Source of the DNA: a virus
Virus record (IMG/VR): IMGVR_UViG_3300032342_000012
Coordinates: 1 to 52,508 of that record
Length of the DNA stretch: 52,508 nucleotides
Direction: 5' to 3' (one strand)
Shown: positions 3,499 to 46,649 of the stretch, piece by piece
How positions within the stretch are numbered: position 1 is the stretch's first letter
How the letters are laid out: every line of letters begins with the position of its first letter
Made by a program: the position numbers and the translations under genes
The notes under the pieces: generated by a model
Seen by the model: only the letters and a program-made list of their open reading frames with translations
Database searches by the model: none
Told to the model about the DNA's origin: nothing

Positions 3499-3506
3499 TA
3501 TTTATA
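3499..3506 (-). promoter_or_regulatory. T4-type late promoter (TATAAATA)
   Basis: The minus strand reads TATAAATA, an exact match to the T4 late promoter. It lies 19 bases upstream of the 83-aa gene start, in the 28-base gap after the 614-aa gene. Confidence 0.65.
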
Positions 3507-5355: not shown

Positions 5356-8300
5356 TTAATCGTCCAAAGCGTTCTGTGGTGTTTCAAACAATCTAATTCC
5401 GTAAAGTGATAGATATGAAGTTTTGAAGATTCCACTATAGTCTGTTCTCAGTGTCATTGCATCCATAAGGACCGAGAAGAAAATGCGATTCGTTGTATCA
5501 GTTGGGAATGTTGTGTACACAGCATTCATTGCCTCGATAATATTCTCAGGTGTATCAAATGAGTATGTTCCAAAAAACACCTCCCTATCAACAGGGAACA
5601 CATTATACTTTTCATCCTCAATCTCTTTTATGACCGTATTTACAGCAAGATTAGGATCTACAAAAGCTTGCTCATCTCCTAGACCCCAACGTGTTCGAGT
5701 ATTGTATGTTTCATCGTACAATTGACGTTCAATTGATGGAACAGGAACGAGTGGATCGTTGAGCTTGTATCCGATAAGAGATTCTGTAATTTTGTCCCAC
5801 AAATCACGTCCGATTAGGAATGGTTGTTTTGCTCTAATCATTTGCCATTCTTCGTGCTTGTTTTTCTTACTGATTGAGTTCTCAAGCGTTTGACGCAACG
5901 AAAGGTCTTTTGTAAACTGAATTTTATAACGATCGTCTTCGTTAATCATTCCAGCAACACCGTTAATGATTACCTGTGAGTAGTAACCAGGAAGCGTATC
6001 AAGATAACTATCAGTGTAGTTTAGAGTGTTTGAAAATGGTGGAACACCAGTGTTGTAAATAAAGTTCTGTTGGAACATATATGGCTGTGGTGGTGTTTTC
6101 AGCTGTATAGCAACTTGATTAATTGGTATTGTGTTACCTTCTGGAAGGGTTGTCTTGTTGCGAACCCAGAAGAAATACGTTACAGAGGTAGTATTTCCTT
6201 GATTGTCGACTGTTGTGACGGTACTGTAAGGATAGTCCTTTGTATACTGCACAGAAGTAGATGTATTTAGTTCCTGTTCACCAAGTTGTGCATCTGTAAA
6301 TTCAGGTAGTGGATTAATAATACGAACAATATCGTTTCCATCAAGTGGTGTTGTGATGTTAACCACCTTTGTTATATCATCTGGCAATGGCGTAAGATTA
6401 ATCACTGCTTCAACTGTTGCTTGTTCAACAAAGAATCCATTAACGTAAACGTCAACAACATTGCCATCAACAACATCAAGGTCCGTAATTGTTAGTGTTT
6501 GTGTAACACCATAAAGTTCCATAACATATTCTTGGTATGGAGCACTATCAAGCTGTACCCATGGTCCCCACACGTTTGTTTCTTGATTCAAATAACGAAC
6601 GTACAAACGTGAGAATGCTTCACCAGTACGTTTTTCTTCTGATAATAATGTTGTATCGTTTTCATCACCACTAACAGCACTTGCCCATTGTGTTGGAGGA
6701 ACGTTCGACTGTGTCCATTCATAAAGGTCAATCGTACTCCAATCAGCAAGTCTGCCCCAATGGAATGATCTTTCGTTCAAGGTGAAGATGTTGTGATCCC
6801 AATATGGTACATAATCAAGATTTGATGTATCCCACCAAGTTGTACCAACTTGTAGACTATTCCACAGATAAGGTGGATTGTATGTAGGATGTTGCTGGTC
6901 GAGATTGTTTGTATACAATGCTGGATTTGTATCACTTGAAAGATCGACATTGACATAAGCATTTGCATAATGGTATCCGCGACCTGGATCCCAGACAGAA
7001 ATTTTCGCCAGTGTTGTTTGGGATTTGTAGTCAATCAATTTTATTGGATTGATTGCATTCTTGTACACATTGATTAGATAGATTGTGTAGTTTGTTAGTC
7101 CATTCCATTGTAGATTAGTTAAAAGAACCTTAATAAGTTTTGAGTTCCTCATTTCATAGTGGATGTCTTCGACAAGAATACCAGTCCTCTTTTGTACAGA
7201 GAATACCCCAACTAATGGTACAAGTAATTGAATTGTGTTTGGGCTTAGTTCGAGATAATCAATACCAGTCTTTAGTAACGTGTTGTCATTTCGTACTTCA
7301 ATATTGTTAGCACCTGGAATGTATGTAAATGGGATTGTCCAAATTGCTGATGGTGCTGTTTCTTCGTAGTAATCAGTACCATTGGTAAATGTAAACCTAA
7401 TTCCATCAGCGGGATTATCAAGCTGGATATATCTGAAGCTATTTGCCATAATAGGAAGTGGACGGACAATTCTTTCTGTCACCTTTGCGTCAAAGTATAG
7501 ATTACCATTGACACTAGTTTCGAGAATTGCCTTCCTTTGTTCTGGTTGTTTATACCATCTGTCTTTATCTGTTAGTTTAACATCTATGAATGACGCTTCA
7601 ACGGGATCGGCAGTGCTTGTGAAATGAAGTCTCATTTCATTTTTACGAACGTCGCCTGTGAATACTTTCAGTTCTGGATAGATCTTCTCTCTCGAGTCGC
7701 CATATTCTGCGATCTTATAAGCCCAAAATTCATCAACAAAAGCATCAACGAAAAGTCTAGAGTTAACGAAAGCCTTAACCGCTGTTACGGTTCCTTTATT
7801 TTGAATTAGTCCCTTCCAGAATAAGAACTTTGACTTCTCGGTTACAGATGATAGTTCGTCCAGATAATCAGGATCTTCATAACCAACTGTGTCGCGGGCG
7901 AACCCAACAAAGTTTGCTGTTTCATTAACAACATATGTATCATAGTACTTTTGCATATTATCGACACCAACTTCAATGTTCTCTATGAATTGGTTATCAA
8001 GTAGGAAGTATCCACCAATATTTGGTCGACGTGTATCACCTGGCGATCGGTAGAATGTTAATGTGAACTTCGCTGTATTTAGACCCAAGAATGGATCATA
8101 GATGAGATTTTCTTCTGTTGTGTAATCATTAAACAGAATAATGTGTTCGTATGTGTCAATGAATAATCTTGCACCACCCATGTAGTCAGCAGATCCTACT
8201 GCAACTCCAACACGCTCGTCCCTTGTCAGTACAGCATCTTCTCCATCTCTTCCTTCATAATTGCTACCAACAGGTTGTGGTGAATAAATGTGTGTTAGTT

Positions 8301-11300
8301 TATCTTCTCTAAGTGCAAATATTGAAGTTGGTGCAATAGGATTACTAATCTGGGTATAAACAGATGGAGTTGTTCTTATGTCACTGAATGGTCCACTAAT
8401 AATATTAGATACAATGCCATATGGAGGACGGAACCACAAATTGTTTTTGAATGGGTTAACGTCATATGAAGGTGTTGTTGGAGCTCCGAACGCTTGATCC
8501 AGGATTGCAACGGTTGCCTCTCCTAGACCTGTATAGATTGCATTTAACAATCCTTCTATTTGTACCTGCCAACTTTGTGGACGGTTGCTTGAAATATCAA
8601 CTTCAGTAATTGATGAATCACTGAACACAAATCCAAGATCCTGTTCAAAGGCAATATACCCATAAATGATATCAAGTAGGGTTTGTATTCCTGTGACGAG
8701 AAATGGTGGAATTACGTGTATTATAGTTCTCGTATCGACGTGATATTCTTTCCATACCTGTGTTGTGAATCCACCGACTGCGACAAATGATTTCTTTATA
8801 TCCGAAACGAAAATTGTACCAGAACCGACTGTTGTAATGTCAATGTATATTCCGAGGTTTGCATTAACCTGTGATGTTGCAAGTTTAAATGAACTATCTG
8901 TTACTTTGATCAGATAGTACGGCGTTGTTGATAAAATCGGAGCGGGGAAAGATTCTGTTGATTCTATGAATATCGCCTTTCCTGTAAACCATGTTAGATT
9001 TTTATCAGTTAGGTCAATATCAGACCATGGTAGTATACCAACATGCGTGAACGTATCGGTTGTTTGATCGACAGATACAGAGTACTTTTTAACACCGTAA
9101 TAGTCTATCGATCTGTTTAGTGGTGACGGTGTTGTTACACGGAATGTCCAGTCAGTACCATCAAGACGTGGAATCCTTGAATTGTGTCTAATGTTGTACG
9201 TTGTGAAACTATCTGTTGTAACTTGAAAACTTTCAACATTAAAGTTTTCGACACCTGGCGACTTTTTCAAAATGATCTGGTAGTCGTTTTTCGTAATATC
9301 AAAGAACTTGTTTGTTATGTCTAGAGACTTAACATCAACCATTGCATCGGTTAGGTATGTCAATTGTGGATGCCATTGTGTCCATAGTGGTTTAAAATCG
9401 GACGTATTAACATCATAGTTGCCATAACGAATGAAGTTAATATACCATTGGTTAATACCATCTGAAAAATATGTTGTATTATCAGGTAATAGGTCTCCAT
9501 GAAATATTGTATCGAGATGTGAGAATACCTTTGATGTACGCATATCAATCTGAAGTCCTGCAACAATCGTAAAGTCTGTTCCCCATGTATAGTGGAGAAA
9601 TCGTACTGGCTGCATTCTGTATGCTGTTCCTAACAAATCAGCATAAAATTGTGTCGAGTCTTGCCACTGTTGTTCTGTTGGTCCAACATCACCAAATTCG
9701 TATATGTCGTCTATCTCGTTAATATTGAGATAGGTGATGCTTCGCACCAACGCTTGTTGGGTTAATGTTGGGTCATTACTGTAGAACGGTGGAATCAGAT
9801 CATCAGGTGCATATCCATCAATTGTTGTAGCATAGATATTGACACTAAAGTGTGTGTACATTTCCACTTCACCAATACCACCAGTACTAACGGTTACTCC
9901 ATCAGGTAATAGTTCACCAACAGGAATGATTCCAAGGTTAAGATTTGACCACATTAATGGGTTCCATCGACGAGTGTTTGTAATGTCTTTGTACAACAAA
10001 TCCCACCATGTTGGTTTACCAGTATATCTTTGAATCTTCCATGGTTCAAGATGTGGATATGGTGTTCCAAATAGTGTTAGATTAATTTGTTCCCATCTTG
10101 CTCCCCAAGGCTTGTCGAGATTTGTCTGTGCAGTTGGATAGACGACAAACAATGTGTTTGCAGCTCTGTAGTTCCACGTAAATGCATCACTATTGTTAAA
10201 GTCTGTTGCAAATGGATCAAGTGCGTTTAGACGAACATATACATAGTATGCTTCTTTCATGTACTGTTGGAATGTTGTCTGATCAGCAAGATCAGTAAAC
10301 ATTTGTGTCTGAAAGTCAAACTTTAAAGTTGTTGTATCTGGTGCAATTTGATACAAACGTCTTTCGGCCTCAAGGATGATATTATTAAGAATGTCCTCAA
10401 GGTTTATCACACGCCAGGCTGCATCAACATCTCCAACAGTGCCTGTTACAGGTGACCATCCAAGAATGATGTTTAGAGGATCTCTAAACATCAACAAATT
10501 CGTTGCAGTATTAAACCAATATGTTCCTTCAGGATATGACAATGCAGGAACGCCTATACCAACAGAAACAGCAATGAATCTGTATAATACCTTTGTTACT
10601 GAATTTTGCCAATATAAACCAGGTGAAACAGCTGTGTATGGTGGAATCGTTGGTGTTGATGTACCACCAGTTATGTTGAGGATATTGACAATCAGTTGAC
10701 GTTCGACAAAATCATCAATTGTGTAAGTATCATAGTGACCATCGTGATGTAGGATCTTATTTAGACCGATCTCTGGATCAACAAGCCATGCTGGTTCTGT
10801 TTTAAACGTAAGATTAAGAATTGGAGATGTTGCTATCCATCCCTTAATTCCTTCGTTTGTTGTTGCATTGTATGCTGTTGTATCGCCAAATACGATGTCG
10901 TTTTGTTTGTTCTGTTCAAATGTGTCGATAGTAGCATTGGATACTTGTGTCTCAAGATCAATAAGAAACTCATCTTGGGTTGTTGTCAGATACGATGTGA
11001 GATTCTGTAGATAGATTTCACTGAGTGTTGTTAGATTGTTATCATATTGTGTTGCAGCAAACGTGAATATGCCTTGAGGCGTAGTTGTTGTACTATACGC
11101 AGAAGACAGAAATGTGTCGTAACTATCATTATATTCGCGTATCGTTCCACCAACACCGTAGTTATATGTCGAAAGTAGTCGCTGTGGAGCTTCAACAGGG
11201 AAATTAAACGGATCGGGAGCAACTTGTAAGTCCATAATCGACTTAAAGTGTGTAAACAGTTGTGTAAACCTAATCTGCTGTCTATTTTCGTGGTCGGCAT

Positions 11301-14058
11301 TGTAGAATAGTTGATTTGGAACTTCCCAAGCACCCTTTCCTGCAGGAACTAATGCTGTTTGTGTTTGATTATTCCAGTCTGTAAACGTATCACCATCTTC
11401 TAGTCTGTATTGATTGATGTAACGAGGGACATATTGTTCATTATCTGTTCCCTTTCTCCAAATGGTTTGTAGTCCTTCAAGATTATCTACCTCAATCGAA
11501 TCACCATCCTTGAAACAGTACATACCTCCATCTTCTGTTAATAGAAGCTGTTCAAACAAATAGTCGCGACCACCATCAAATGTGACGATTCTCTTACCAA
11601 TTGTAGTGTTAATGCCAAGATTTTGGTCTTCGACGTATCTAAAGATTTCGTTTGCTAGGTACGCTGTTGTACCATCGATGTTGAACAAGTCAAACAGTGG
11701 GTATTGATTTGTATACTGCTTAATTTGTTCAACCTGTCTATATTTTGCAAGGTTTTTATATTCAGGTATAAATGGGACATCTGTTGTTGTTCTGACAGGA
11801 ATACCATTGTGATCAATCCCATCGTACCCAATATCAAGATCAGCAGCAACACCAAGTTCCACACGAACAACAGTTGATACAACCGATGAAGGGTCTAAGA
11901 ATGCAATTGCGTTTGCATACAACGTTGTTGATATTGCTGGTGTGAATATAAATCCATCCCAGTTTCCTTCAACGTAGTTACCATACTGACGAATATCATC
12001 AACATACACTCTGATTGCATTCGTGTTTGCAAGGTAATGTGTTACTCCAAAGTCAAACACTGGTGTTAGTATTGATACAATAAACTCATGTGTATCTGTT
12101 GTTGTAGCTGGGACCTGATGATTTACAGGAACAGGATCTTCAATCTCTTGTAGTACCCATTGGTTTACGAATCCAAAATATGAGTCACCTTTACTCGATG
12201 TTACAAATGGCGCAACATAATCTGTGTGAATAAATGTACCATCAACAGGTAGGAAAGGTAGTGTCTCGATCGTTTGAATTTCAGTACGGTTGAATATAAT
12301 ATTGTAAAGGAATCCATTAACTGTATAAAGACCATCATTGCCTGATGATCCTTCAATTGTGATTTTGTCGCCGATTGTAAGATCAAGTGTTCTGTCGTCT
12401 GTAATATAGATTTCTGTTATTGTTCCACCAATAATTGGAGCGACAATGCCACTAATCGTTAGTGGTGGATTTGTTGTTTGTACAACAGTATTAATCCCAT
12501 TGAAGAAAGAACCAACAGTGTTCCAGTGAGTGACGTTGAAGAACTCATTTTCAATTGAGAACTCAAATCCTGGAACAAATAGTGCAGTCTTATTACCAGG
12601 AACGATAATCGTTCCAGCACCGATATCAACGAAGAGGATTTGGTATCTTTCTGTCATTTCTGACAGGGTAGGTTGTGTATCTGATTGTTCCCAATCTGAT
12701 ATAACATTGGCTCTATATAGCCAAATTTGATTTAGGTATACCCACTCATTTAATTGAAGTCTTGGGTGGTACTCAATTATTGGTGCTGCAGCTGGCGTTG
12801 CGTGGTTAATATCTGGAACGTCCTTACGATGATACCATTTGTTTGCTGCCGACCACGGATCGGTTTGTGCTTGACAACCAGTTATAAAGTCCCAGGGGTA
12901 TAATCCAGTTGCAGGAGGAGTGATGTAGTCAATCCAGTCGGTTAGAGCAGTTGACCAGATTTTCATTTCAAGAGTTTCGAGATTGAACCAGAAGAATGTA
13001 TCTTGTGGGAAACTTGCGCCGCGTGGTCCTGGTGGAGGGGTTGCTGTTGTCCAGCCACCACCTGGTATTGCCGCTCCATTGACGTTTAGTGTTCCATCAA
13101 CAATTAACGATCCATCACCAGTAGCAAGTGCAGGAATTGTCTCATTGACAACAACATCTGTATTGGGACCATTGTTGGTTGCAGAAACAATTGTATACGT
13201 TCCGTCTCCACTACCGCTATTTCCTTGAACAACAAACGCCTCTCCGATGACAAATTCGCTTGCATGATTTCCTGAAACAGTCCATGTACCTCCGACACCA
13301 ACTATTACGCCATTAATTGTGTATGTGTTAGAAATTGGAGGACCAACATTTCCAACATCGAACCACCAATTTTCAGGATTGTCATCCCACTGTCCAATAT
13401 CCCACCCAAGTGAACCTCCGTTACATGTACAATCTCTTTGTGCTTCAATCGATGACAGTGTGGCAAGAATTTGGGCTTCTTCAATTGGTGTTATTAGTGG
13501 ATCTGCTAGACGTTCAGTTGCGTAAGCATAGTATTCATTGTACTGTGCTTCGTAGACACGACATAAGTTCTTGATTGTGATATAATCTGGTGGTATACTT
13601 CCAGTTGGATCATACCAATAGTAGTTGCGGAAGTTGACAAGTTTGTCGGCATCAATAGGTGGAACCCAGTTAAACTGTAGTGCATTGCCCCACTTTGGTG
13701 AACGATCAATGTCTACACCAGTATTTTCTAGCTCGTTCTCAACGTCTTCCCACGACATTGCATGGTCAATAGTTGCAACTTTTGAATATAAAATAGGTTG
13801 AAGCTGCCACGCCTGACGAATTACAGTAGGCTCTTCAATTCGTGTGTCATGATAGATGTAGTCACCATTAGTGTCTACCTCGAGAAAACTTGTGTTTCTC
13901 TTACCAACGGAGCCATATGCAAATTCCATCTCATTTTTTGTGAGATACCTATTGAACGTGTTATGGGAAAGATGCTTATTGATTAGCGTCTTGAACACAT
14001 CCGGAAGGAGTTTGAATATGTTCGTATGTGGTTTTGTGTAGTCTGAATTATCTGCCAT
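5356..14058 (-). CDS. Giant virion protein, probable baseplate wedge component at the gp7 position (2900 aa)
   Basis: This single uninterrupted frame covers 8.7 kb. It follows gp5, gp25 and gp6, in the slot held by gp7 in T4 (about 1030 aa), so I infer a baseplate wedge role by synteny only. The N-terminus (NIFKLLPDVFKTLINKHLSH) is followed by Trp/Tyr/Asn-rich beta segments throughout, for example FNWVPPIDADKLVNFRNYYW. Residues about 240-330 hold a GNDG-type module (GTWTVSGNHASEF...GNSGSGDGTYTI), and about 470-610 hold two more. The rest shows no clear tandem repeat. No intein, protease or lysozyme motif was noticed. A TATAAATA promoter lies 29 bases before the start codon and GAGGAG serves as ribosome site. 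The length is nearly three times that of T4 gp7. Confidence 0.65.
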   Translation of the reverse strand: MADNSDYTKPHTNIFKLLPDVFKTLINKHLSHNTFNRYLTKNEMEFAYGSVGKRNTSFLEVDTNGDYIYHDTRIEEPTVIRQAWQLQPILYSKVATIDHAMSWEDVENELENTGVDIDRSPKWGNALQFNWVPPIDADKLVNFRNYYWYDPTGSIPPDYITIKNLCRVYEAQYNEYYAYATERLADPLITPIEEAQILATLSSIEAQRDCTCNGGSLGWDIGQWDDNPENWWFDVGNVGPPISNTYTINGVIVGVGGTWTVSGNHASEFVIGEAFVVQGNSGSGDGTYTIVSATNNGPNTDVVVNETIPALATGDGSLIVDGTLNVNGAAIPGGGWTTATPPPGPRGASFPQDTFFWFNLETLEMKIWSTALTDWIDYITPPATGLYPWDFITGCQAQTDPWSAANKWYHRKDVPDINHATPAAAPIIEYHPRLQLNEWVYLNQIWLYRANVISDWEQSDTQPTLSEMTERYQILFVDIGAGTIIVPGNKTALFVPGFEFSIENEFFNVTHWNTVGSFFNGINTVVQTTNPPLTISGIVAPIIGGTITEIYITDDRTLDLTIGDKITIEGSSGNDGLYTVNGFLYNIIFNRTEIQTIETLPFLPVDGTFIHTDYVAPFVTSSKGDSYFGFVNQWVLQEIEDPVPVNHQVPATTTDTHEFIVSILTPVFDFGVTHYLANTNAIRVYVDDIRQYGNYVEGNWDGFIFTPAISTTLYANAIAFLDPSSVVSTVVRVELGVAADLDIGYDGIDHNGIPVRTTTDVPFIPEYKNLAKYRQVEQIKQYTNQYPLFDLFNIDGTTAYLANEIFRYVEDQNLGINTTIGKRIVTFDGGRDYLFEQLLLTEDGGMYCFKDGDSIEVDNLEGLQTIWRKGTDNEQYVPRYINQYRLEDGDTFTDWNNQTQTALVPAGKGAWEVPNQLFYNADHENRQQIRFTQLFTHFKSIMDLQVAPDPFNFPVEAPQRLLSTYNYGVGGTIREYNDSYDTFLSSAYSTTTTPQGIFTFAATQYDNNLTTLSEIYLQNLTSYLTTTQDEFLIDLETQVSNATIDTFEQNKQNDIVFGDTTAYNATTNEGIKGWIATSPILNLTFKTEPAWLVDPEIGLNKILHHDGHYDTYTIDDFVERQLIVNILNITGGTSTPTIPPYTAVSPGLYWQNSVTKVLYRFIAVSVGIGVPALSYPEGTYWFNTATNLLMFRDPLNIILGWSPVTGTVGDVDAAWRVINLEDILNNIILEAERRLYQIAPDTTTLKFDFQTQMFTDLADQTTFQQYMKEAYYVYVRLNALDPFATDFNNSDAFTWNYRAANTLFVVYPTAQTNLDKPWGARWEQINLTLFGTPYPHLEPWKIQRYTGKPTWWDLLYKDITNTRRWNPLMWSNLNLGIIPVGELLPDGVTVSTGGIGEVEMYTHFSVNIYATTIDGYAPDDLIPPFYSNDPTLTQQALVRSITYLNINEIDDIYEFGDVGPTEQQWQDSTQFYADLLGTAYRMQPVRFLHYTWGTDFTIVAGLQIDMRTSKVFSHLDTIFHGDLLPDNTTYFSDGINQWYINFIRYGNYDVNTSDFKPLWTQWHPQLTYLTDAMVDVKSLDITNKFFDITKNDYQIILKKSPGVENFNVESFQVTTDSFTTYNIRHNSRIPRLDGTDWTFRVTTPSPLNRSIDYYGVKKYSVSVDQTTDTFTHVGILPWSDIDLTDKNLTWFTGKAIFIESTESFPAPILSTTPYYLIKVTDSSFKLATSQVNANLGIYIDITTVGSGTIFVSDIKKSFVAVGGFTTQVWKEYHVDTRTIIHVIPPFLVTGIQTLLDIIYGYIAFEQDLGFVFSDSSITEVDISSNRPQSWQVQIEGLLNAIYTGLGEATVAILDQAFGAPTTPSYDVNPFKNNLWFRPPYGIVSNIISGPFSDIRTTPSVYTQISNPIAPTSIFALREDKLTHIYSPQPVGSNYEGRDGEDAVLTRDERVGVAVGSADYMGGARLFIDTYEHIILFNDYTTEENLIYDPFLGLNTAKFTLTFYRSPGDTRRPNIGGYFLLDNQFIENIEVGVDNMQKYYDTYVVNETANFVGFARDTVGYEDPDYLDELSSVTEKSKFLFWKGLIQNKGTVTAVKAFVNSRLFVDAFVDEFWAYKIAEYGDSREKIYPELKVFTGDVRKNEMRLHFTSTADPVEASFIDVKLTDKDRWYKQPEQRKAILETSVNGNLYFDAKVTERIVRPLPIMANSFRYIQLDNPADGIRFTFTNGTDYYEETAPSAIWTIPFTYIPGANNIEVRNDNTLLKTGIDYLELSPNTIQLLVPLVGVFSVQKRTGILVEDIHYEMRNSKLIKVLLTNLQWNGLTNYTIYLINVYKNAINPIKLIDYKSQTTLAKISVWDPGRGYHYANAYVNVDLSSDTNPALYTNNLDQQHPTYNPPYLWNSLQVGTTWWDTSNLDYVPYWDHNIFTLNERSFHWGRLADWSTIDLYEWTQSNVPPTQWASAVSGDENDTTLLSEEKRTGEAFSRLYVRYLNQETNVWGPWVQLDSAPYQEYVMELYGVTQTLTITDLDVVDGNVVDVYVNGFFVEQATVEAVINLTPLPDDITKVVNITTPLDGNDIVRIINPLPEFTDAQLGEQELNTSTSVQYTKDYPYSTVTTVDNQGNTTSVTYFFWVRNKTTLPEGNTIPINQVAIQLKTPPQPYMFQQNFIYNTGVPPFSNTLNYTDSYLDTLPGYYSQVIINGVAGMINEDDRYKIQFTKDLSLRQTLENSISKKNKHEEWQMIRAKQPFLIGRDLWDKITESLIGYKLNDPLVPVPSIERQLYDETYNTRTRWGLGDEQAFVDPNLAVNTVIKEIEDEKYNVFPVDREVFFGTYSFDTPENIIEAMNAVYTTFPTDTTNRIFFSVLMDAMTLRTDYSGIFKTSYLSLYGIRLFETPQNALDD

Positions 14059-14086: not shown

Positions 14087-14094
14087 TATTTATA
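14087..14094 (-). promoter_or_regulatory. T4-type late promoter (TATAAATA)
   Basis: The minus strand reads TATAAATA in the 88-base gap between gp6 and the 2900-aa gene, 29 bases upstream of that gene's ATG. A short hairpin (ACCAA 14106-14110 / TTGGT 14116-14120) lies just before it and might end gp6 transcription, but it is weak. Confidence 0.65.
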
Positions 14095-14146: not shown

Positions 14147-17100
14147 TTACGCTTGTCTGATTGTTACACGATCTAGTGCTTGAACTATTTGAATAATACT
14201 CACAGGTATATGTGGTAGGAAAATTTCATTATCTTCAGCAGGTACCTGGAACAAATCTCCAAACGTGTTTGATGGATATGTTGGTACAAGAACAACAGAA
14301 TCAATCTCTGACGGCAGTGCTGTATGAATTGCCGCTGCAAGTTCTGTAAAGAAGAATGTTTCACCAAACTCCCACTGGCTTATATCAAAATAATTGTTTA
14401 CAGTTGTCTGTATCGTTGCTTTGATCTGATTGTCTGTCAATGATGAGAACTGTGAACGAATCACCTTAAATGTTGCTTGTAACTGTTGATCAGCATAAGG
14501 ACCAAACAAATATTTAAATTGTCCTGATTGAAGGACGACAGTGTCTGATAGCATCCTATTATCAAGTAGGTATGCATACGAACTTCTAAGATCATATGGT
14601 GTTGGAGCAGCTGGTTTAATAACGATTTCTCCTGCAAGCCAATCTTTGATATTGAGGTAGTAGTCTCTCTGAATGATGAACATATCGATAATGTTTGTTG
14701 CTGCAGGATCGATAAGGTTCTTCAATCTTGTGTGATGTCTCCACATAAAGTTTAGTCCACTACGACCAAGTTGTCTTGAGTAGTTCGATCCAGTGTTTGT
14801 GTTTGTGCTTGATGTGTCGTTAATGAATGCCTGGATGTTATCGTCTGTGGGCTCAATTGGTACGGGTTGTACATTTGGATCGTCTTGATAAAAATACACA
14901 TAGTCATTAACTATAATAGTCAACTCGTCACTGTCCTGTAGATCAGTTATTTCAACAGTATCGTACATTTGGTTGAGTACATGTGAAACGTTGAAATGAA
15001 TTCCACTAACGAATAGAAGTGTACCGTTACCTATAATTGTTACATCCCCTCTTCCTTCAATGTAAACTAATGGGATAGGAACTATTAGTGGTGTCGCTAG
15101 CGTTACTGATGAGCCGCTACCAATTTGTGTAACGTCATTTGCCAAAATATGACCGAGATAGTTAACATCCCAGTTTACTGGAGCACCGAACGTTACGGTA
15201 AGTGTTGATGTATCGGAAGCGAGTAGTGTCTCAAATTTTAGATTGCCACCAACGATTGTGATATTAACCTGTGGAAATACGGGAAGATCAGCAATAACTG
15301 TATTAATAAATTGTGTCCACGTTAACCCTTGACTCATACGGAACACACTTGGTAATGATGCTGACCTTTCAATAATACCATCCACGATAGCACTAACAAC
15401 GGTACCCGTTATGGTGATTGTTGTGTTACCAAGTCCAAACACAGATGATGCAACAGTGTACGTACCATCATTTCCTGTCGATCCTGTAACATCAAACGTT
15501 GAACCGGGTGTAAATGCTGACGTGCGATCGTTGGGGACAACGAACGTTCCCCCTAAACCAGTCGTGACGGCAGTTATCACGTAAGTATCTTCTATAACAA
15601 CGGACATATTAACTTCAAAATCATCACCTTCGATGTCGCCACTATAGATAACATTTGGTACTGTTAAAAGAGCGGCCGCGATTGCTGTGATGATACTATC
15701 AATTGTGTCTATGTTGATAACATTAACCTTTGATCGATCGCCAGTTGTTAAACTCTTTAGCTGAATGTTTCCACCAACAAGTTCTGCTTTTGCTATATCA
15801 CCAAATCCTTGGTTGATTACATCAACCAAGGATCCATATGTTTGAATCTGGTCACCAGTGAACGTAATCTGTCTCGTTATAGCTGCACGACGGTAGTTAA
15901 TTTGTCCATCTGCTACTGCGCTAGGAATTAGTTCAAATGTAATGATTTCTGTACCAATTGCGTTTGTTCCTACTACTGGTGTACCAAAACTATTAAAAGT
16001 AGCAAGTAAACTGAACAACGAGTTTAGTCCGGGAACAGCAGTCAGAATTGCATCAAAATCTGTTAAGTCTGGATCGGCAAATAATGTACCTGGTGTTATA
16101 AGAACTGTTGATGATTGTCCTATCGACGCTGATGTTACTCTTATATTACCTGCTATAAGCAAAGCTGTAGCAGCACCAGCTAAGTCAGTATTAAGTTCTG
16201 CTAATAGTTGTGTATATGTTTGAGCATTTGTTGCATCAACAGAAATTGGATAGTTTGTACCGTCAATATTGATTGTAGCCGTATATGTTGTATCTGTACC
16301 TGGAACGGCAGCATTGAATGTATTAGCACCACCTGCTGCAACTGCAATAGCAGCAAAAATGTCACCACCAGTTGAACCAAACGTGCCTGCAGCTACAAGA
16401 ATTGACGACGTTGTACCCAGTGTAGTACTGGTAAAAACAAACTCGCCACCAACAAATGTTACAGTTGCAGCTGGTGTTACTTCTGCATCCATAAGAGCAG
16501 CGATTGTATTGTAATCTTCTACGCCTGTAAGTACAATTGATTCTTGTTGAAGTGGTCCACCATCGATTGTAATATCAAAGTCGTATGTGTCTGCAGGAAT
16601 TGCAGGAACAACCGTACCTAGTGGTAAACCAAAAACAGATACTTCTTGATACCCTGCTGTTGCAATAAGTCCTGTAGAATCTAAAAGAGTTTTGGCAACC
16701 GTAAAGTCGACTTCCTGATATCCAGATGTTCCTGCATCAACGATAGATACTGTTGATGAAGTCCCAACGCTGTTGCTTGATATTTGAATGTTTCCATTAA
16801 CAATTGAAGCGGTTCCAAATGCTCCAATCTGTGAGTTAAGACTGTCAAGTAGTCCACCATATATCTGAGCAATTCCACCAGCAACGGAGACAGGAATTAT
16901 ATTAACTGTATCAATCGTTATTGTTGCATAATATGGTGTTGTTATCGTATCAGTACCAGGTATTGTAATCCAAGATCCAGGTGCATTAACACTTGCAAGT
17001 GGAGCAACGAATAACGTACCAGCACTAACAGCAACATTTGATGTCGCACCAAATGTATCACTGGTTATTACAATATTGCCATTCAGTTGTTGTACTGTAG

Positions 17101-20100
17101 CAAAACCACCAAGTTGACTACTCAACTGCGACAATAGTGTTGAAAATGTTGTAGCTGTTGAACCAATGATCGATATTGGAATTATAACTGCACCATCTAC
17201 AGTTACTGTAGCAACGTACGTTGTAGTTGGTACAAGAGCGGTTGGATCGCTGCCTGTCTTAGCAACAGAGAATGTTATTGTTTGTGATCCTTGCGTTGCA
17301 CCAACGTCATTCGTAAGTCCTGTAATATCAGAAGATACACGACTTCCGCCAACGTTAACAATTTGTGTTCCAGATGTTCCTTGAACAAATCTGAACGAAT
17401 CAATTGTATACACTCCATTATTATCTACGACAAGGGAGCCATCAGCAGTTGCACCAATAGGGATAGTTTCGTTGACAACGATATTTGTGTTTGGTCCCAC
17501 ATCTGTTGCTGATGCAATTGTGTAGGTACCATTGCCTGTGCCAGTATTACCTGTTACAGTAAACGGATGACCTATAAAATTCGACAGCAGGAGTGCGGAA
17601 TTTCCAGAAATTGTCCACGTACCACCAGCACCAGTAATAACAGCAACGATTGTATATATTGTTCCCGTTGATCCTGTAACACTAAACAATCGATACTTTG
17701 ATATGTAAGGCGTAATGTCATTATCAACGTAGAACCGCTGTAGTGGTTGGTTTAAGCTATTAATTGGTGAGTTATCTTCGGTTGAACTTAGATCAACCTC
17801 AAGTAGTAGTCTGTATGCTACTTGATTATTAGCAACATCTGTTGGAGTATCTGGTAGTTTATTACTACCGACATTCCACAAACTAGTTCCGTTAGTTGGA
17901 GCTAATAGACCTGTTGTCCCATCATAAGATGCTGTATTGCCAAAATTGACAACATAGAATGCTGACAGAGAAGTACTGTCTGTGATGTCAATTGATGGAT
18001 TGAGAAGTTCTGACAGTCTAATGTTATCTGGTAAACCGTCACGGTTACTATCTGTTGGAACAACATCGAGTCTGTGAATATCTGGTAGTCCGCTATTTAG
18101 ATACTCATCATGACCAAGAACAACAAGATCAATATTGTCAACAAGTGTTCTTGCACGATCGTTGTCTGAATTTGCGTTAAGAACGGTTACAACATCATTA
18201 GATGGCGTTTGCGAATCAAAGTCTACAACGTCTCCATCTTGTGCAAACCAGAATCTCGTTGTCTGACTATCAGCAGTTAGAGTAGATGTGCTATATGAAA
18301 TGCTCCATGGTGTTACAGTTGGATTAGCATTGACGATCTTGATAAAGTATGGTTGGTCTGGATGAAGGACAAGCCATACATTAGTATAGTCATCCTGATT
18401 GTAAGCAATCCACGTATCAGTAGCCGTATCGTGCACCAAGTAGACAGGAAATCCAACACTTGGTAGAGGAATTGGATGTGTCGGTGTAACGTCACCAAGG
18501 GCATATGGGATCTCGTTTCGTTCTGCTGTTGTGAATAATCGACGACCAGGATTTGTATCACCCCTTAAAACCCTTGCCATATAGAAATTAGGATTAGAAA
18601 GAATTGGTTCAAGATAATTGTCTAGAATTGCCGTTCCAAGAACTTCAGCTCCAACATCAGGAAGAACAAATTCATTTGTTCCATAATATAATGCAAGGTC
18701 GTTTCCAAACAATTTAACATTGTCGTATGCTTCACTTGGATCGGTGAAATTCATCCATTTAGATTCACCAGCAAATGTTCTGTTGATTGCCTGGAGTTTG
18801 AGAATCGTTGGATCTTGAAGCATGAACGTATTATAGTCACGTCCATTAACCATACGATCTTGTGTATAGTATACAGCGCGAGCTGTTCTACGAATGTGTT
18901 CAATATCTTCTGATGGCGATGCGTTCTGAATGGTAGAAATTAGTGAGAACTTGAACGATAGTGTTTGATTGTTCCCTGCAACGTCTTGATATGTTAACGA
19001 ACCATTTGTTCCTTGAATTGAACTTTGTGGAACAATAACGTCATTGTTTGCTGAGATGCGGAACCAAATATCAAACGTTCCCGATGGGACATTTGCGAAT
19101 TCGCCATCACCAAAGATCAATCGAACGTCATCATTCTCAAGGGTTTCAACTTCATACTTGTTTCTTGCTGTATTTGTGTTAAAGATAATGTTTTGTGAAT
19201 TTGCCGTATCAACTTGAACCCAAGCACCAGAACGACCTGTGGAAGAAGAACCATCATCTACAATGCTTCCTGTTATTGTATTAATATTGTTCAGCCAAAT
19301 ATCTGTTTCGTTAATGTTCTGAGAATTGATTTGGAATGTTTGGTTTGGTGTTACACCATCAAACGTTTCTGTCAGTTTTTGCAAAGATCCTTGTTTTGTA
19401 ACAAACATGAAACCAGTACTATTGGAACCATCACCGAGACCATCAGATGCATACAGTAGTGTCATTGCTGAACTATTCTCTGGACGTCTTTCATATGGTC
19501 CATCACTATTAAGTGCTGCAGGAACAAGTTCGAATGTATATGTCTGATCTGACACACTAACACTATAACGAATTATACCATTTGGAAGCGATTGGTTGTC
19601 AAATGTATACAGCTCGAATAGAATATCTTGTACCTGAACACGCTCGCTTGGTGTTACAGTACCGAAATCATTCTGTAGTGCACGATTGAGAACAAGAATG
19701 AATTGTTCTTTCCAGTCTGGATTTGTTGGATCGTTCCAAACAATGTTTTTATTAGTTAGGTTAACACCTTTCGAGTCCGTAAGTCTTTCAGATGTTCTAA
19801 TAGACGTAATCTTTACGAGACCACGAGCGGGAATGTTTCTTGCTGCTGTGTACGAAATGAACTTTGCAAGTCGTAGGACACTTTGCTTTCTTTGTGCTAC
19901 TGGAAGAAAGTTTTCACGAGCGTTAAGATCCTGTCTATATGCAACAAGTTCACCAACATATGCAAATGTTTCAACGATTGCAATCAGCTCACTTGACTCA
20001 ATGAAATCATTGAACGATTCAGGGAAATATGTTCTAATGTAGTCAATCAAACTTTGTTTGATTGTGTTGTAGTCGTATGATGTGAAATTAATGTTCTGAA

Positions 20101-20164
20101 ATGCATCATATACCTGACGCCACGTTTCAGCACTAGACACTGTTGGAATTAATCTTCCGGCCAT
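14147..20164 (-). CDS. gp6: Baseplate wedge subunit gp6, greatly enlarged by internal repeats (2005 aa)
   Basis: Both ends match the T4/cyanophage gp6 family: the N-terminus has SLIDYIRTYFPESFNDFIES, ELIAIVETFAYVGELVAYR and RNIPARGLVKITS; the C-terminus has GLNFMWRHHTRLKNLIDP, IIDMFIIQRDYY and QWEFGETFFFTELAAAIH. gp6 joins neighbouring baseplate wedges into a ring. T4 gp6 is about 660 aa, so roughly 1000 residues are extra and lie in the middle. They comprise GNDG-type modules (around bases 17400-17690 and 15360-15600) and about five units of a second domain of roughly 100 aa (around 15640-17330) with T-Y-x-x-x-V-T-V-D-G strands and G-N-I-x-I-T-S-x-x-x-G-x-S-S-x-V. It starts 3 bases after gp25 with AAGGAT as ribosome site. 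Confidence 0.9.
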   Translation of the reverse strand: MAGRLIPTVSSAETWRQVYDAFQNINFTSYDYNTIKQSLIDYIRTYFPESFNDFIESSELIAIVETFAYVGELVAYRQDLNARENFLPVAQRKQSVLRLAKFISYTAARNIPARGLVKITSIRTSERLTDSKGVNLTNKNIVWNDPTNPDWKEQFILVLNRALQNDFGTVTPSERVQVQDILFELYTFDNQSLPNGIIRYSVSVSDQTYTFELVPAALNSDGPYERRPENSSAMTLLYASDGLGDGSNSTGFMFVTKQGSLQKLTETFDGVTPNQTFQINSQNINETDIWLNNINTITGSIVDDGSSSTGRSGAWVQVDTANSQNIIFNTNTARNKYEVETLENDDVRLIFGDGEFANVPSGTFDIWFRISANNDVIVPQSSIQGTNGSLTYQDVAGNNQTLSFKFSLISTIQNASPSEDIEHIRRTARAVYYTQDRMVNGRDYNTFMLQDPTILKLQAINRTFAGESKWMNFTDPSEAYDNVKLFGNDLALYYGTNEFVLPDVGAEVLGTAILDNYLEPILSNPNFYMARVLRGDTNPGRRLFTTAERNEIPYALGDVTPTHPIPLPSVGFPVYLVHDTATDTWIAYNQDDYTNVWLVLHPDQPYFIKIVNANPTVTPWSISYSTSTLTADSQTTRFWFAQDGDVVDFDSQTPSNDVVTVLNANSDNDRARTLVDNIDLVVLGHDEYLNSGLPDIHRLDVVPTDSNRDGLPDNIRLSELLNPSIDITDSTSLSAFYVVNFGNTASYDGTTGLLAPTNGTSLWNVGSNKLPDTPTDVANNQVAYRLLLEVDLSSTEDNSPINSLNQPLQRFYVDNDITPYISKYRLFSVTGSTGTIYTIVAVITGAGGTWTISGNSALLLSNFIGHPFTVTGNTGTGNGTYTIASATDVGPNTNIVVNETIPIGATADGSLVVDNNGVYTIDSFRFVQGTSGTQIVNVGGSRVSSDITGLTNDVGATQGSQTITFSVAKTGSDPTALVPTTTYVATVTVDGAVIIPISIIGSTATTFSTLLSQLSSQLGGFATVQQLNGNIVITSDTFGATSNVAVSAGTLFVAPLASVNAPGSWITIPGTDTITTPYYATITIDTVNIIPVSVAGGIAQIYGGLLDSLNSQIGAFGTASIVNGNIQISSNSVGTSSTVSIVDAGTSGYQEVDFTVAKTLLDSTGLIATAGYQEVSVFGLPLGTVVPAIPADTYDFDITIDGGPLQQESIVLTGVEDYNTIAALMDAEVTPAATVTFVGGEFVFTSTTLGTTSSILVAAGTFGSTGGDIFAAIAVAAGGANTFNAAVPGTDTTYTATINIDGTNYPISVDATNAQTYTQLLAELNTDLAGAATALLIAGNIRVTSASIGQSSTVLITPGTLFADPDLTDFDAILTAVPGLNSLFSLLATFNSFGTPVVGTNAIGTEIITFELIPSAVADGQINYRRAAITRQITFTGDQIQTYGSLVDVINQGFGDIAKAELVGGNIQLKSLTTGDRSKVNVINIDTIDSIITAIAAALLTVPNVIYSGDIEGDDFEVNMSVVIEDTYVITAVTTGLGGTFVVPNDRTSAFTPGSTFDVTGSTGNDGTYTVASSVFGLGNTTITITGTVVSAIVDGIIERSASLPSVFRMSQGLTWTQFINTVIADLPVFPQVNITIVGGNLKFETLLASDTSTLTVTFGAPVNWDVNYLGHILANDVTQIGSGSSVTLATPLIVPIPLVYIEGRGDVTIIGNGTLLFVSGIHFNVSHVLNQMYDTVEITDLQDSDELTIIVNDYVYFYQDDPNVQPVPIEPTDDNIQAFINDTSSTNTNTGSNYSRQLGRSGLNFMWRHHTRLKNLIDPAATNIIDMFIIQRDYYLNIKDWLAGEIVIKPAAPTPYDLRSSYAYLLDNRMLSDTVVLQSGQFKYLFGPYADQQLQATFKVIRSQFSSLTDNQIKATIQTTVNNYFDISQWEFGETFFFTELAAAIHTALPSEIDSVVLVPTYPSNTFGDLFQVPAEDNEIFLPHIPVSIIQIVQALDRVTIRQA

Positions 20165-23757: not shown

Positions 23758-23765
23758 TATTTATA
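23758..23765 (-). promoter_or_regulatory. T4-type late promoter (TATAAATA)
   Basis: The minus strand reads TATAAATA, 22 bases upstream of the retropepsin-like gene start at 23736. It overlaps the last codons of the preceding nuclease gene. Confidence 0.6.
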
Positions 23766-30924: not shown

Positions 30925-31215
30925 TTATCCCTTGACGCGTTTTTCAACATAATCAGCAATCTCTTCGAACGTACTACCACCATCGTTTAGTTCTGCTAGA
31001 AACTCCTGCCTTCTGGAATCAAGACCACATTTAGCGAGCTGTTTTGTCGAAAGTAGATCTCCACCTTTACTTTCTGATGCGTCACTTGGATCCATAATCT
31101 CTCTTAACACACCGAGACAGCAGTATCCTTGGAAGTTTTTAAGTTCGCCTGTTGTTTGTTCATATTGTCCTGACCGTAGTGCCTTAATCCATTTTTTCTT
31201 CCACGATGTAATCAT
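30925..31215 (-). CDS. Conserved-type phage protein of unknown function (96 aa)
   Basis: The pattern W-x-x-A-L-R-S-G-x-Y-x-Q-T-x-G-x-L, then GYCCLGVLREIMDP and a final LAELNDGGSTFEEIADYVE is one I recognise from small conserved proteins in many phages; no function is known. Two adjacent cysteines (CCLG) are typical of it. It overlaps the RNA ligase gene by 4 bases (ATGA), so the two are translated together. Confidence 0.75.
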   Translation of the reverse strand: MITSWKKKWIKALRSGQYEQTTGELKNFQGYCCLGVLREIMDPSDASESKGGDLLSTKQLAKCGLDSRRQEFLAELNDGGSTFEEIADYVEKRVKG

Positions 31216-32186
31216 TGTTCGAACTCCTCGTTCATTTTGTTAAAGTACCATTCTCTTGTTCGAGTATTAACAACCTTGACAACGTCTTTCCATTCAAACC
31301 CGTTGCCTTCAATTGTATCTGTCTCTTCCTTGAGAATATCGTTGGCAACCCACTTCATGAATTTACCCATGTTCTGTGGGATGTGTGGTGACTGATCTTC
31401 ATTAACCAGCCAATTTAGTCCCTGTCGAAGTCGACCCTCAGGGAGGATTACATCAACGCAGGCATTAATGTTGTTAACCTTTTCGATGTCAACACTTGCA
31501 ACTTTTGTGACTTTCGTCACACTATGTTTCTGACCTTTCGTCTTAAACCACAAGTGTGTATTTTCTGGTCGTTCAGCACAAATCCAAACGATTCCCTCAC
31601 CAATACCAGTGAATCCAAAGTGTTTTGTCCACGGACATTCTTGTTCAACGTCCAGAGTTAACTTTTCCAAAGTTGGCGATGCTTGTTCTGGATTCTTGAA
31701 GTCTATATCAATTGTAAATGGTTGCACTTCATAAATGTTGTAGATTGATGCACTATGATTGTGAACGTTTGTTTGAATTGGTGCATAAACACCATCGATA
31801 ACATATGCAAACAATACCCATTGCTTTGGTAAATTTGATAATCCAACCCCTTTCTGTATATTTCCACCAATCCATTCACCATACAATGTAATATCGTTCT
31901 CTTTGGTTCCAAGTAGGTCAAATAGCCCATGTAGAATCGATTCTGGTATTTGGAAAATAAATCTTGCAAATCCGTGATTGTCATTGTCAATATCAAGGAT
32001 TCGTTCCCTTGACTGAGGCTGAATTTTGTCGTGAAAACGACGAAGACCAGCATTGGTCCCATGTAGTTTTGGTGATCCAATGAACGTGAGTGTAGGAATT
32101 AAATGCGGTGATGAGATACGATTGAAGTCGTCACGAACACATTTAACAACTGTTCTATATTGCTCGATACTTGGGAACTTGTTCAT
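31212..32186 (-). CDS. rnl2: RNA ligase, T4 Rnl2 family (324 aa)
   Basis: The nucleotidyltransferase motifs are in order: motif I KLHGTN at 40-45 with adenylated Lys40, motif III LYGEWIGG at 101-108, motif IV GEGIVW at 196-201, motif V WFKTKGQKH at 213-221. A C-terminal helical domain follows (about 240-324). Rnl2 enzymes seal nicks in RNA by an ATP-dependent reaction; T4 uses RNA ligases to repair tRNA cut by host defences. Length matches T4 Rnl2 (334 aa). It is the first gene of a leftward operon and has its own sigma70-type promoter, so it is probably early. The ribosome site is poor (GATAATAGTAAA). Confidence 0.88.
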   Translation of the reverse strand: MNKFPSIEQYRTVVKCVRDDFNRISSPHLIPTLTFIGSPKLHGTNAGLRRFHDKIQPQSRERILDIDNDNHGFARFIFQIPESILHGLFDLLGTKENDITLYGEWIGGNIQKGVGLSNLPKQWVLFAYVIDGVYAPIQTNVHNHSASIYNIYEVQPFTIDIDFKNPEQASPTLEKLTLDVEQECPWTKHFGFTGIGEGIVWICAERPENTHLWFKTKGQKHSVTKVTKVASVDIEKVNNINACVDVILPEGRLRQGLNWLVNEDQSPHIPQNMGKFMKWVANDILKEETDTIEGNGFEWKDVVKVVNTRTREWYFNKMNEEFEQ

Positions 32187-35472: not shown

Positions 35473-35480
35473 TATAAATA
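35473..35480 (+). promoter_or_regulatory. T4-type late promoter (TATAAATA), plus strand
   Basis: TATAAATA, an exact late consensus, lies 17 bases upstream of the secreted-protein gene at 35498 and just after the RNR stop. It separates this gene in timing from the RNR operon. Confidence 0.65.
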
Positions 35481-44431: not shown

Positions 44432-45091
44432 TTACTTAATCTTTCCTGTCTTCTTTGCTGCCTTTGCCTTCTCTTCCTGAACTTCTGGATTCGAGAACAT
44501 CTTTTTTAGACGCTTACGAACTTCATCAGAATCCATCCAAATATCCGTGCCACGAAGGACCGCATCTACTTCCTCCTGTGCAAGGAACGGCATTGCAATC
44601 TTCTTCATCAACTTTGCGAACCATTTATTCGTTGCATCAAGTTCAGCCTGTTGTTCATGTCCCTTTCCAACTACACCACCAGTATAGTGATGAAACATCA
44701 TTAGGCAGTTTTCGTGAACTTGTAGTTCGTCACCAGAAAGAAAGATTAAAGTACCAAGAGAATAGGCTTTCGCTTCAAGAATCGTTACGACGTGAGCGTT
44801 TGTGGCTCTCATTGCGTTTATGATGTGCATTCCTGTATCGAGCCGTCCACCTGAGGTATTGAGGTGAATATACACTACATCGTTTTCTGTTGCTGTTAGA
44901 ATTTTTGAGATCATTTCGACGTAGTCGCTAGGATCTCCAATCTCATCCATAACGAAGAAATGGTACTGCTTTAATATTGTTGACCTTTCTAATGTTTTAT
45001 AGGCTGTAGTAGAGTGTTCTTCTTCTTCTTTTCTTTTGTTCTTGGTTGATTTTGCGTTATAGGACACTACTGTTTGTTTTTGTTCGTCCAT
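44432..45091 (-). CDS. clpP: ClpP-like serine protease (219 aa)
   Basis: The fold and triad of ClpP can be read: HLNTSGGRLDTGMHIINAM at 76-94 (oxyanion region), Ser111 in EAKAYSLGTLIFLSG, His134 in MMFHHYTGG, 23 residues later, and likely Asp183 in RGTDIWMDSDE. The N-terminal 40 residues are a charged extension (KSTKNKRKEEEEHSTTAYK) that bacterial ClpP lacks. ClpP forms a barrel that degrades proteins unfolded by ClpX or ClpA. Some phages use ClpP-like proteins as head-maturation proteases, but here the gene lies directly downstream of the tmRNA, not among head genes. AAGGACG is the ribosome site. No ClpX-like unfoldase gene is in the window. Confidence 0.85.
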   Translation of the reverse strand: MDEQKQTVVSYNAKSTKNKRKEEEEHSTTAYKTLERSTILKQYHFFVMDEIGDPSDYVEMISKILTATENDVVYIHLNTSGGRLDTGMHIINAMRATNAHVVTILEAKAYSLGTLIFLSGDELQVHENCLMMFHHYTGGVVGKGHEQQAELDATNKWFAKLMKKIAMPFLAQEEVDAVLRGTDIWMDSDEVRKRLKKMFSNPEVQEEKAKAAKKTGKIK

Positions 45092-45119
45092 TATACGTCC
45101 TTTTATTATTATTGAAGAA

Positions 45120-45398
45120 CTGTGCAGCGGAATTGGGTAACAAGGCTCCGCTGCAAACCCCGTTGAGGCTTAGGCCGCTAGGCCAAGTTCCTCAAAATAG
45201 AATGCGTCATTTGCATTTACTCGTTTTATGCTGTTTACGACAGTCATCTCTCGGGTTGCGTAATAGCCTATTTACCGTCAATCGATACCATTGCAGGCCC
45301 ATCAGAAACACTCTCACAGAAAGAGCTGTTGGTGGACCTGTCCGGAGTCGAACCGGAGTCTTGCTCGGCCTTACTACTACAACGTTTACAACCATTCT
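45120..45398 (-). ncRNA. ssrA: Circularly permuted two-piece tmRNA
   Basis: Reading the minus strand, the acceptor piece comes first (about 45398-45330): the T-arm TCCGG-TTCGACT-CCGGA, then CAGGTCC-A and an encoded CCA at 45330. After a 29-base spacer the coding piece begins at 45300 with GGGCCTG, which pairs with CAGGTCC as a 7-bp acceptor stem (one G-U), followed by a D-loop-like GGTATCGATTGACGG. GGCT(A)TTAC (45260-45268) pairs with GTAAGGCC (45367-45374) as helix P2 between the two pieces. The tag frame is at 45170-45214. Its stop codon lies in a GAGG/CCTC hairpin, then an H-type pseudoknot follows: GGGT/ACCC (45157-45160, 45135-45138) and GCAGCGGA/TCCGCTGC (45147-45154, 45124-45131). Both mature 5' and 3' outer ends are estimates. 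It rescues stalled ribosomes and tags the unfinished protein. Confidence 0.95.
45170..45214 (-). other. tmRNA tag reading frame, ANDAFYFEELGLAA
   Basis: Minus-strand codons from the resume codon GCA (45214-45212) to TAA (45172-45170) read ANDAFYFEELGLAA. It begins AND, as in many proteobacterial tags, and ends in LAA, the signal read by ClpX. The 14-residue length is usual. Confidence 0.93.
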
Positions 45399-45408
45399 TA
45401 ATGTATTT

Positions 45409-45438
45409 ATTTTACTTCAAACTTTTACAGAAAGTCAA
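45409..45438 (-). promoter_or_regulatory. Sigma70-type promoter of the tmRNA
   Basis: On the minus strand TTGACT (45433-45438) and TAAAAT (45409-45414) are 18 bases apart, placing the start near 45402, just ahead of the acceptor piece. An AATAAATA late-like element overlaps the -10 box (45405-45412), so late expression is also possible. Confidence 0.65.
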
Positions 45439-45499
45439 CAACTAAAAGGTTACTAGTAATAGTCACGTAACGCTCAGGTTACATAAACACAAACAAATT

Positions 45500-45515
45500 G
45501 GGCACTTTGGTGCCC
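45500..45515 (-). terminator. Terminator hairpin after DHFR
   Basis: GGGCAC-TTTG-GTGCCC is a perfect 6-bp GC-rich hairpin directly after the DHFR stop; on the minus strand it is followed by AATTTGTTTGTGTTT. It separates the DHFR transcript from the tmRNA promoter. Confidence 0.7.
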
Positions 45516-45516
45516 T

Positions 45517-46083
45517 TTACTTCCTCACATAATGTACGAAGTACAACTCGTCAGTTTCTTTACCATCCTTAATCGCGAAGTGCCGTGTAAGAATTTGGGT
45601 TGGGAAGATCTTATCGCAATTAAAATAGTGTTTTACTATAGTTAAATAGACGTTTTTAACTCTCGAAAAACTTTCAATAAACAGCTTTTGGCCCCCGAGA
45701 ATGAACACAGTCTTTCCCTGTACTTGTTCATCTTGTAGAACCTTAATTAGTTCGTCTTTCTTTATTGCTCCAATTGGTTCAAATTCTGGATTTCTCGATA
45801 GGACATAACTTGTCCTGTTTGAAAGAAGTGGTTCATTACTAGTAATGGCCATCACAGGACTATTTTCAACCGTTCTGGTCCTCTGGTGCTTCATTACTAG
45901 TATTTCTTCATATGTGTGCCTACCCATAACAACAACGTGACCTTTCGTGAGCTGTTGGAACTGTTTCAGGTCTTCTTTGGCATAAGGTTCCCCCTTCCAA
46001 GGAATTTGGTAGTCCTTAGCAAACCCTCCTGCAAGATCGACTGCAACTATAATTGATACATCATCGTTTGTTAAGTTATTCAT
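45517..46083 (-). CDS. folA: Dihydrofolate reductase (188 aa)
   Basis: The DHFR pattern is clear: SIIVAVDLAGGFAKDYQIPW (the substrate and Trp region), LKQFQQLTKGHVVVMGRHTYEEI (the M-G-R-x-T-x-E/W motif that holds NADPH), SPVMAITSNE, TVFILGGQKLFIESF (the I-G-G-x-x-I/L-F motif) and VYLTIVKHYFNCDKIFP. The enzyme restores tetrahydrofolate used up by ThyA, which is also in the window. I chose ATG 46083; the TTG one codon earlier is an alternative. It overlaps a 27-codon frame by 8 bases and ends at a hairpin terminator. Confidence 0.9.
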   Translation of the reverse strand: MNNLTNDDVSIIVAVDLAGGFAKDYQIPWKGEPYAKEDLKQFQQLTKGHVVVMGRHTYEEILVMKHQRTRTVENSPVMAITSNEPLLSNRTSYVLSRNPEFEPIGAIKKDELIKVLQDEQVQGKTVFILGGQKLFIESFSRVKNVYLTIVKHYFNCDKIFPTQILTRHFAIKDGKETDELYFVHYVRK

Positions 46084-46159
46084 CAATAAGTTCTTTTTCT
46101 AGTTGTTGTATTAGTTCTTCCGTTAACCCCTCTGGTATAGTTTCTATTTCAAGTTTCAT
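46076..46159 (-). CDS. Possible 27-aa peptide gene between Acb1-like and DHFR genes
   Basis: The frame begins at ATG 46159, inside the last codons of the 2H-phosphoesterase gene, and ends inside the DHFR start (stop TAA within ATGAATAA). It exactly fills the gap, overlapping both sides. The product is acidic and helical (MKLEIETIPEGLTEELIQQL). There is no Shine-Dalgarno, so it would depend on re-initiation. It may serve only to couple translation of DHFR. Confidence 0.4.
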   Translation of the reverse strand: MKLEIETIPEGLTEELIQQLEKELIDE

Positions 46160-46649
46160 TATTGACCCAGTTAATTTTTAAGTCATTGTGATATTCACAA
46201 TCAAACACAAGTTCAAAGTCGATTATCTGTAATTGAGACGAATTGAGCTCACCAACATCATACGACAAAGTTACATGTGGAATGTATATGTCGTGTTCAT
46301 TAGTCGCCCTGTGCTCACTGAGCAGGAATTGATGGCGAGCAACAATTTTAGGACTTTGGAGTCTAACGACTAGACAATTGGTCTGAGGACCAGTTTGGTT
46401 TGTGGTAGAGGTTTTCCATATAGTGAATCGTTCGGGTATACATAGGTATGGCTCCTCTAATTGACCTGCTGGTACATAATCGGGAAGATATTTCCGACTG
46501 CATAGCAGTGTTACGTGAAAGGTTTCCTGTTTGGTGGGATTAGGAATTTCATTCTTAATACACCACTGTACAAGTTGTCGTGCTGTGTCCTTTGCTGCCC
46601 GTAGTCCTACAAACGTTCCTTTTTCTTGTTTTGGATCTTTTTGCTCCAT
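46149..46649 (-). CDS. acb1: 2H phosphoesterase, T4 57B/Acb1-like anti-CBASS candidate (166 aa)
   Basis: The two H-x-T motifs of 2H phosphoesterases are H45-V-T47 (TFHVTLLCSRKYLPDYVP) and H125-V-T127 (YIPHVTLSYDVGE). The linking sequence, with a LLCSRKYLP loop after the first motif and a S-Y-D after the second, and the length (T4 57B is about 150 aa) resemble Acb1. In T4 this enzyme cuts the cyclic nucleotides made by CBASS defence. RNA ligase/cyclic phosphodiesterase relatives share the fold, so activity on cyclic nucleotides is an inference. GAGGAAA lies upstream of the ATG at some distance. Confidence 0.75.
   Translation of the reverse strand: MEQKDPKQEKGTFVGLRAAKDTARQLVQWCIKNEIPNPTKQETFHVTLLCSRKYLPDYVPAGQLEEPYLCIPERFTIWKTSTTNQTGPQTNCLVVRLQSPKIVARHQFLLSEHRATNEHDIYIPHVTLSYDVGELNSSQLQIIDFELVFDCEYHNDLKINWVNNET

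Follow-up and report, generated by a model that had tools for sequence, protein, structure and literature searches.

Phage-encoded two-piece tmRNAs have been described from Melnitz and other marine phages, and in the 2022 report (PMC9004378) the two-piece form accounts for 53 of 133 unique phage tmRNAs in 18,146 genomes, 50 of the 53 coming from marine or aquatic samples. That report, the nearest in subject to the present locus, leaves the reason for tmRNA carriage by phages at speculation. A tmRNA database of 2025 includes 79 sequences from bacteriophages, counting every form (PMC11915505), and huge phages with both tmRNA and SmpB were reported in 2020 (PMC7162821). The locus studied here lies in a 52.5-kb virus contig of 52,508 nucleotides, referred to below as the window, and like Melnitz it encodes a two-piece tmRNA. 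The Melnitz tmRNA is of alpha type and lies directly upstream of a transcription coactivator, and a glutamine riboswitch and an early promoter are reported for it (PMC9004378), while the window tmRNA is of beta type, adjoins a clpP gene and is preceded by a late-type box. The Menderavirus phages, T4-like Stenotrophomonas phages deposited in GenBank, also carry tmRNAs that score as permuted and beta-type. In Marzo (MZ326868; 119 and 94.6 bits) the gene is annotated only as tmRNA; like the window it is a permuted beta-type tmRNA of a T4-type phage, but it sits inside a tRNA cluster in a genome where no ClpP was found.

The minus strand of the window contains one complete circularly permuted tmRNA at approximately 45113–45393, as located by ARAGORN and two Rfam models (Table 1). 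ARAGORN called a tmRNA* at 45079–45423 (minus strand) with the tag ANDAFYFEELGLAA, which was the sole tRNA or tmRNA gene of the whole window. The full RF04321 (tmRNA_permuted) model was matched at 45393–45170 (minus strand) with 128.8 bits and an E value of 5.8e-25, and the full RF01850 (beta_tmRNA) model at 45443–45113 (minus strand) with 112.2 bits and an E value of 2.1e-33, against curated cut-offs of 47 and 84 bits respectively. The first-pass annotation had proposed a permuted gene from the bases alone and had named ARAGORN and covariance models as the check; both models scored over their cut-offs, and the order it described, in which the T-arm and CCA come ahead of the 5′ acceptor strand, was given alike by ARAGORN, RF04321, RF01850 and direct reading. 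The structural elements it listed were also recovered. The acceptor stem across the two pieces is paired at seven of seven positions, the third being G:U, and the P2 helix is divided between the acceptor and coding pieces. The coordinates of the 29-base spacer were exact on direct reading, ARAGORN returned the same tag and frame, including the TAA, and both helices of the final pseudoknot are present by complementarity.

Table 1. Features of the tmRNA locus and associated signals in the window.
Feature	Position	Strand	Basis
Acceptor piece: P2 5′ part, T-arm, CAGGTCC, A73, encoded CCA	45330–45393	-	RF04321 and RF01850 alignments, sequence, pairing
3′ acceptor strand CAGGTCC	45340–45334	-	Direct sequence reading
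Discriminator A (A73)	45333	-	Direct sequence reading
Encoded CCA	45332–45330	-	Direct sequence reading
Intervening spacer, 29 nt, between CCA and 5′ acceptor strand	45301–45329	-	Rfam alignments and sequence
Coding piece: 5′ acceptor strand, D-analogue, P2 3′ part, tag frame, final pseudoknot	45118–45300 (3′ end approximate)	-	RF01850 match to 45113, ARAGORN
5′ acceptor strand GGGCCTG	45300–45294	-	Direct sequence reading
Tag frame ANDAFYFEELGLAA and TAA; resume codon GCA	45170–45214	-	ARAGORN coding part 210–254 of gene, sequence
Terminal pseudoknot, whole	45124–45160	-	Direct complementarity; conserved GCCUUGUUACC matched in RF01850
Pseudoknot stem GCAGCGG / CCGCTGC	45154–45148 / 45130–45124	-	Direct complementarity
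Pseudoknot pairing GGGT / ACCC	45160–45157 / 45138–45135	-	Direct complementarity
clpP, 219 aa, Clp-type serine protease	44432–45091	-	PF00574 E 1.2e-13, phrog_1827 E 1.7e-57, triad alignment
Dihydrofolate reductase (DHFR), upstream neighbour of tmRNA	45517–46086	-	phrog_316 E 3e-28
AATAAATA, one mismatch from TATAAATA, 11 nt ahead of tmRNA	45404–45411	-	Motif comparison
Terminator-like hairpin after DHFR gene, before tmRNA	45500–45515	-	Hairpin scan; such hairpins no more numerous than in shuffled sequence
Exact TATAAATA boxes	3499–3506, 14087–14094, 23758–23765	-	Sequence scan
Exact TATAAATA box	35473–35480	+	Sequence scan

A G:U at the third acceptor pair (G3:U) is an alanine identity signal, and the alanine identity set of the window tmRNA is complete, consisting of the G3:U pair, A73 and CCA. 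The tag frame is likewise complete, running from a resume alanine to an LAA end followed by a stop, and its 14 residues compare with 10 in two bacterial copies (ANDERFALAA and ANDENFALAA). Proteins that carry a tag ending in LAA are directed to Clp proteases. The window tmRNA resembles the RF04321 and RF01850 families in gene order, tRNA-like domain, tag and final pseudoknot. The main difference is the 3′-terminal 9-bp hairpin of the RF01850 model, which is deleted in the alignment, while the remaining model is matched and the score stays over the cut-off. As a supporting detail only, the precursor folded better than 197 of 200 shuffled sequences (z -2.6).

Comparison with related phage loci revealed that this architecture is conserved. 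The seven acceptor positions were fully paired between the two pieces in 112 of the 115 permuted phage tmRNAs and the third pair was kept as G:U in 113, counting the best offset for each locus and including near-identical copies. When 83 distinct sequences were read at a fixed offset, some lacked full pairing, and pairs 4–6 switched among CG, GC, TA and AT; such compensatory changes between the two pieces argue for working molecules. The spacers of these 83 relatives were 9–111 nucleotides long, mostly 25–34. Most phage relatives have tags ending in AA; some have unusually long predicted tags of about 22–33 residues (L005, L006, L036, L056, L067 and others), and odd short tags such as ADAELVAA are common to others. 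A search of 50 related phage records gave no SmpB, so host SmpB is assumed. The window tmRNA itself was not placed in the tree calculated from 90 tmRNAs.

The suggestion in the first-pass annotation that a two-piece tmRNA in a T4-type phage would be rare or undescribed does not hold, being contradicted by the 2022 count (PMC9004378), by the Menderavirus copies and by at least 120 stretches matched in a pattern scan of IMG/VR. ARAGORN reported 115 permuted tmRNAs among 141 sequences; counted in the 115 are the window, copies of it and the loci selected through ClpP. Of 50 larger related records, 47 passed the RF04321 cut-off; these whole-record searches covered the 50 larger loci, with most short contigs left out. 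Permuted tmRNAs were also found in Xanthomonas phage Rb1 (L144, 4004–4309) and Alcaligenes phage QDWS595 (L145, 3973–4226), in both cases absent from the features listed for the stretch. The published counts, the Menderavirus copies and the IMG/VR matches together place the window tmRNA within a known kind. Two-piece tmRNAs are therefore common in environmental phages, T4-type included, so the form of a phage tmRNA need not follow that of its host.

The genes around the tmRNA are phage genes of T4 type, in agreement with the earlier assignment to such a phage. The window encodes both topoisomerase II subunits, a DnaB/gp41-type helicase, a gp5-like hub/tail-lysozyme protein and a gp25-like baseplate wedge protein, together with ribonucleotide reductase, thymidylate synthase, DHFR and NAD ligase, and it contains TATAAATA late boxes. 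Neither the tmRNA DNA (distant blastn) nor its 12.5-kb flank (megablast) gave a match in the phage collection. Each of the four exact T4-late boxes (TATAAATA) lies 17–28 nucleotides before a same-strand gene start, a placement that covers 3.1% of window positions. Permuted versions of the 8-mer occupied this placement at 15 of 138 occurrences, so AT-rich gaps account for part of the box placement but not all of it. The count of the AATAAATA motif in the window was by itself not above chance, and the case for a late promoter at the tmRNA therefore draws on the position of this motif and on the exact boxes elsewhere.

The clpP gene that adjoins the tmRNA, which does not appear in the first-pass annotation, starts approximately 25 nucleotides past the last helix of the tmRNA, downstream on the same strand. 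Its ribosome-binding site, AAAGGA, lies inside this gap, and the short distance together with the separate ribosome-binding site makes a shared transcript likely. The catalytic triad S111-H134-D183 is intact and is invariant across the aligned phage and bacterial relatives. The phrog_1827 phage family and the second chromosomal ClpP of Neisseriales are likewise of the Clp family with a Ser-His-Asp triad.

Among cellular proteins, the closest relatives found for the window ClpP (44–51% identity) come from Neisseriales and related betaproteobacterial genomes. In the three stretches that were read, these ClpP-like genes lie among ordinary chromosomal genes. Unlike the window clpP they have no adjacent tmRNA, none being found beside the gene in 13 stretches from Neisseriales and related genomes (L153–L165), and all nine Neisseriales-type genomes searched have a one-piece tmRNA. 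Among 80 genomes sampled from Neisseriales, only 2 had the permuted form. If the host belongs to this group, the phage would bring a form of the tmRNA gene that its host lacks.

Judged from gene positions, the tmRNA-clpP neighbourhood recurs in other, distantly related phages. Of the 15 phage clusters that contain both genes, 7 have them no more than 1 kb apart, where uniform placement would give 0.5; the test treats the clusters as independent, which they are not strictly, and 5 of the 15 came from searching with the window ClpP itself. The order is reversed in two of the seven, with clpP ahead of the tmRNA. With PhoH as a control, the gap to the tmRNA was 1 kb or less in 2 of 16 clusters (0.7 expected), and the direct contrast between ClpP and PhoH reached only P 0.054. 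Thymidylate synthase gave 0 of 6, too few clusters for a linkage control. Searching IMG/VR with the window ClpP returned further loci, again with a permuted tmRNA close by, and in the tmRNA tree the members with the two genes adjacent are scattered over separate branches. In a further group, with ANDY-type tags, clpP is found 0.9–2.2 kb downstream of the tmRNA on the same strand. In the cultured phages with a permuted tmRNA that were examined, ClpP is absent or, in two phages with both, far from the tmRNA. No description of a phage tmRNA beside ClpP was found in the accessible portions of the open-access literature.

The locus is a complete permuted tmRNA gene of beta type, carried by a T4-type phage, and probably a working one. 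Given the gene, parts, neighbourhood and conservation observed, established tmRNA biology suggests how it would most likely act. A transcript probably shared with clpP would begin late in infection, and host tRNA-processing enzymes would cut it at the 3′ CCA and at the 5′ acceptor strand, with loss of the 29-nucleotide spacer leaving two base-paired pieces. Host AlaRS would charge the tmRNA through G3:U, and host SmpB would deliver it to ribosomes stalled on broken mRNA. Addition of ANDAFYFEELGLAA would then mark the product for Clp proteases through its LAA end, and the phage ClpP from the next gene may add to or replace the proteolytic half. That a standard one-piece tmRNA or a tRNA was misread as permuted is a general risk of such computation and can be practically dismissed here, as both Rfam models are matched at full length, the T-arm and CCA are encoded ahead of the 5′ acceptor strand, and ARAGORN and Rfam report only the permuted form over these bases, with no higher-scoring standard form. 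It is also improbable that the gene is a passenger or decoy, a tmRNA taken from a host that would compete with host trans-translation or inhibit it instead of adding tags. PMC11915505 reports such a precedent in phage DS6A, whose tmRNA lacks a tag. The window tmRNA by comparison has a full tag frame with stop, a resume codon, a pseudoknot and charging signals, and both the compensatory changes in the acceptor stem across phages and the T4-type gene set count against this origin. In its favour, integration commonly takes place at tmRNA genes, which gives phages a way to acquire copies.

A working tmRNA could also have nothing to do with the adjacent ClpP, which would then be a capsid-maturation or general phage protease sharing the late operon by chance, and the probability of this falls a little short of even. 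Several PHROG head-maturation protease families also match the window ClpP, and in some phages the tmRNA lies fairly near PhoH as well, so part of the ClpP signal is regional. The best PHROG match, however, is the 'ATP-dependent protease' family, whose E value of 1.7e-57 is much stronger than the 5.9e-26 of the top head-maturation family; the close cellular relatives are the chromosomal ClpP-like genes of Neisseriales, and the scattered branches on which adjacency is seen also argue against this reading. A more far-reaching reading is a tag-and-degrade module, in which a two-piece tmRNA and the phage's own ClpP would occupy one late operon, recur across distant phages and pass rescue products to a phage-controlled protease during infection. 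This proposal is tentative and rather unlikely. If the neighbourhood is a real unit, it would offer a concrete test of why phages carry tmRNA, and it merits a proper census.

Other genes of the window include an Acb1 anti-CBASS protein at 46149–46649 on the minus strand (PF23474, E 7.6e-24), a counter-defence gene near the tmRNA that immediately precedes the DHFR gene. An RNA ligase, a T4-type RNA repair gene, is encoded at 31212–32186 on the minus strand (phrog_548, E 1.1e-50). Two giant frames on the same strand span 14147–20164 (2005 residues) and 5356–14058 (2900 residues), the longer of which matched a virion structural protein family.
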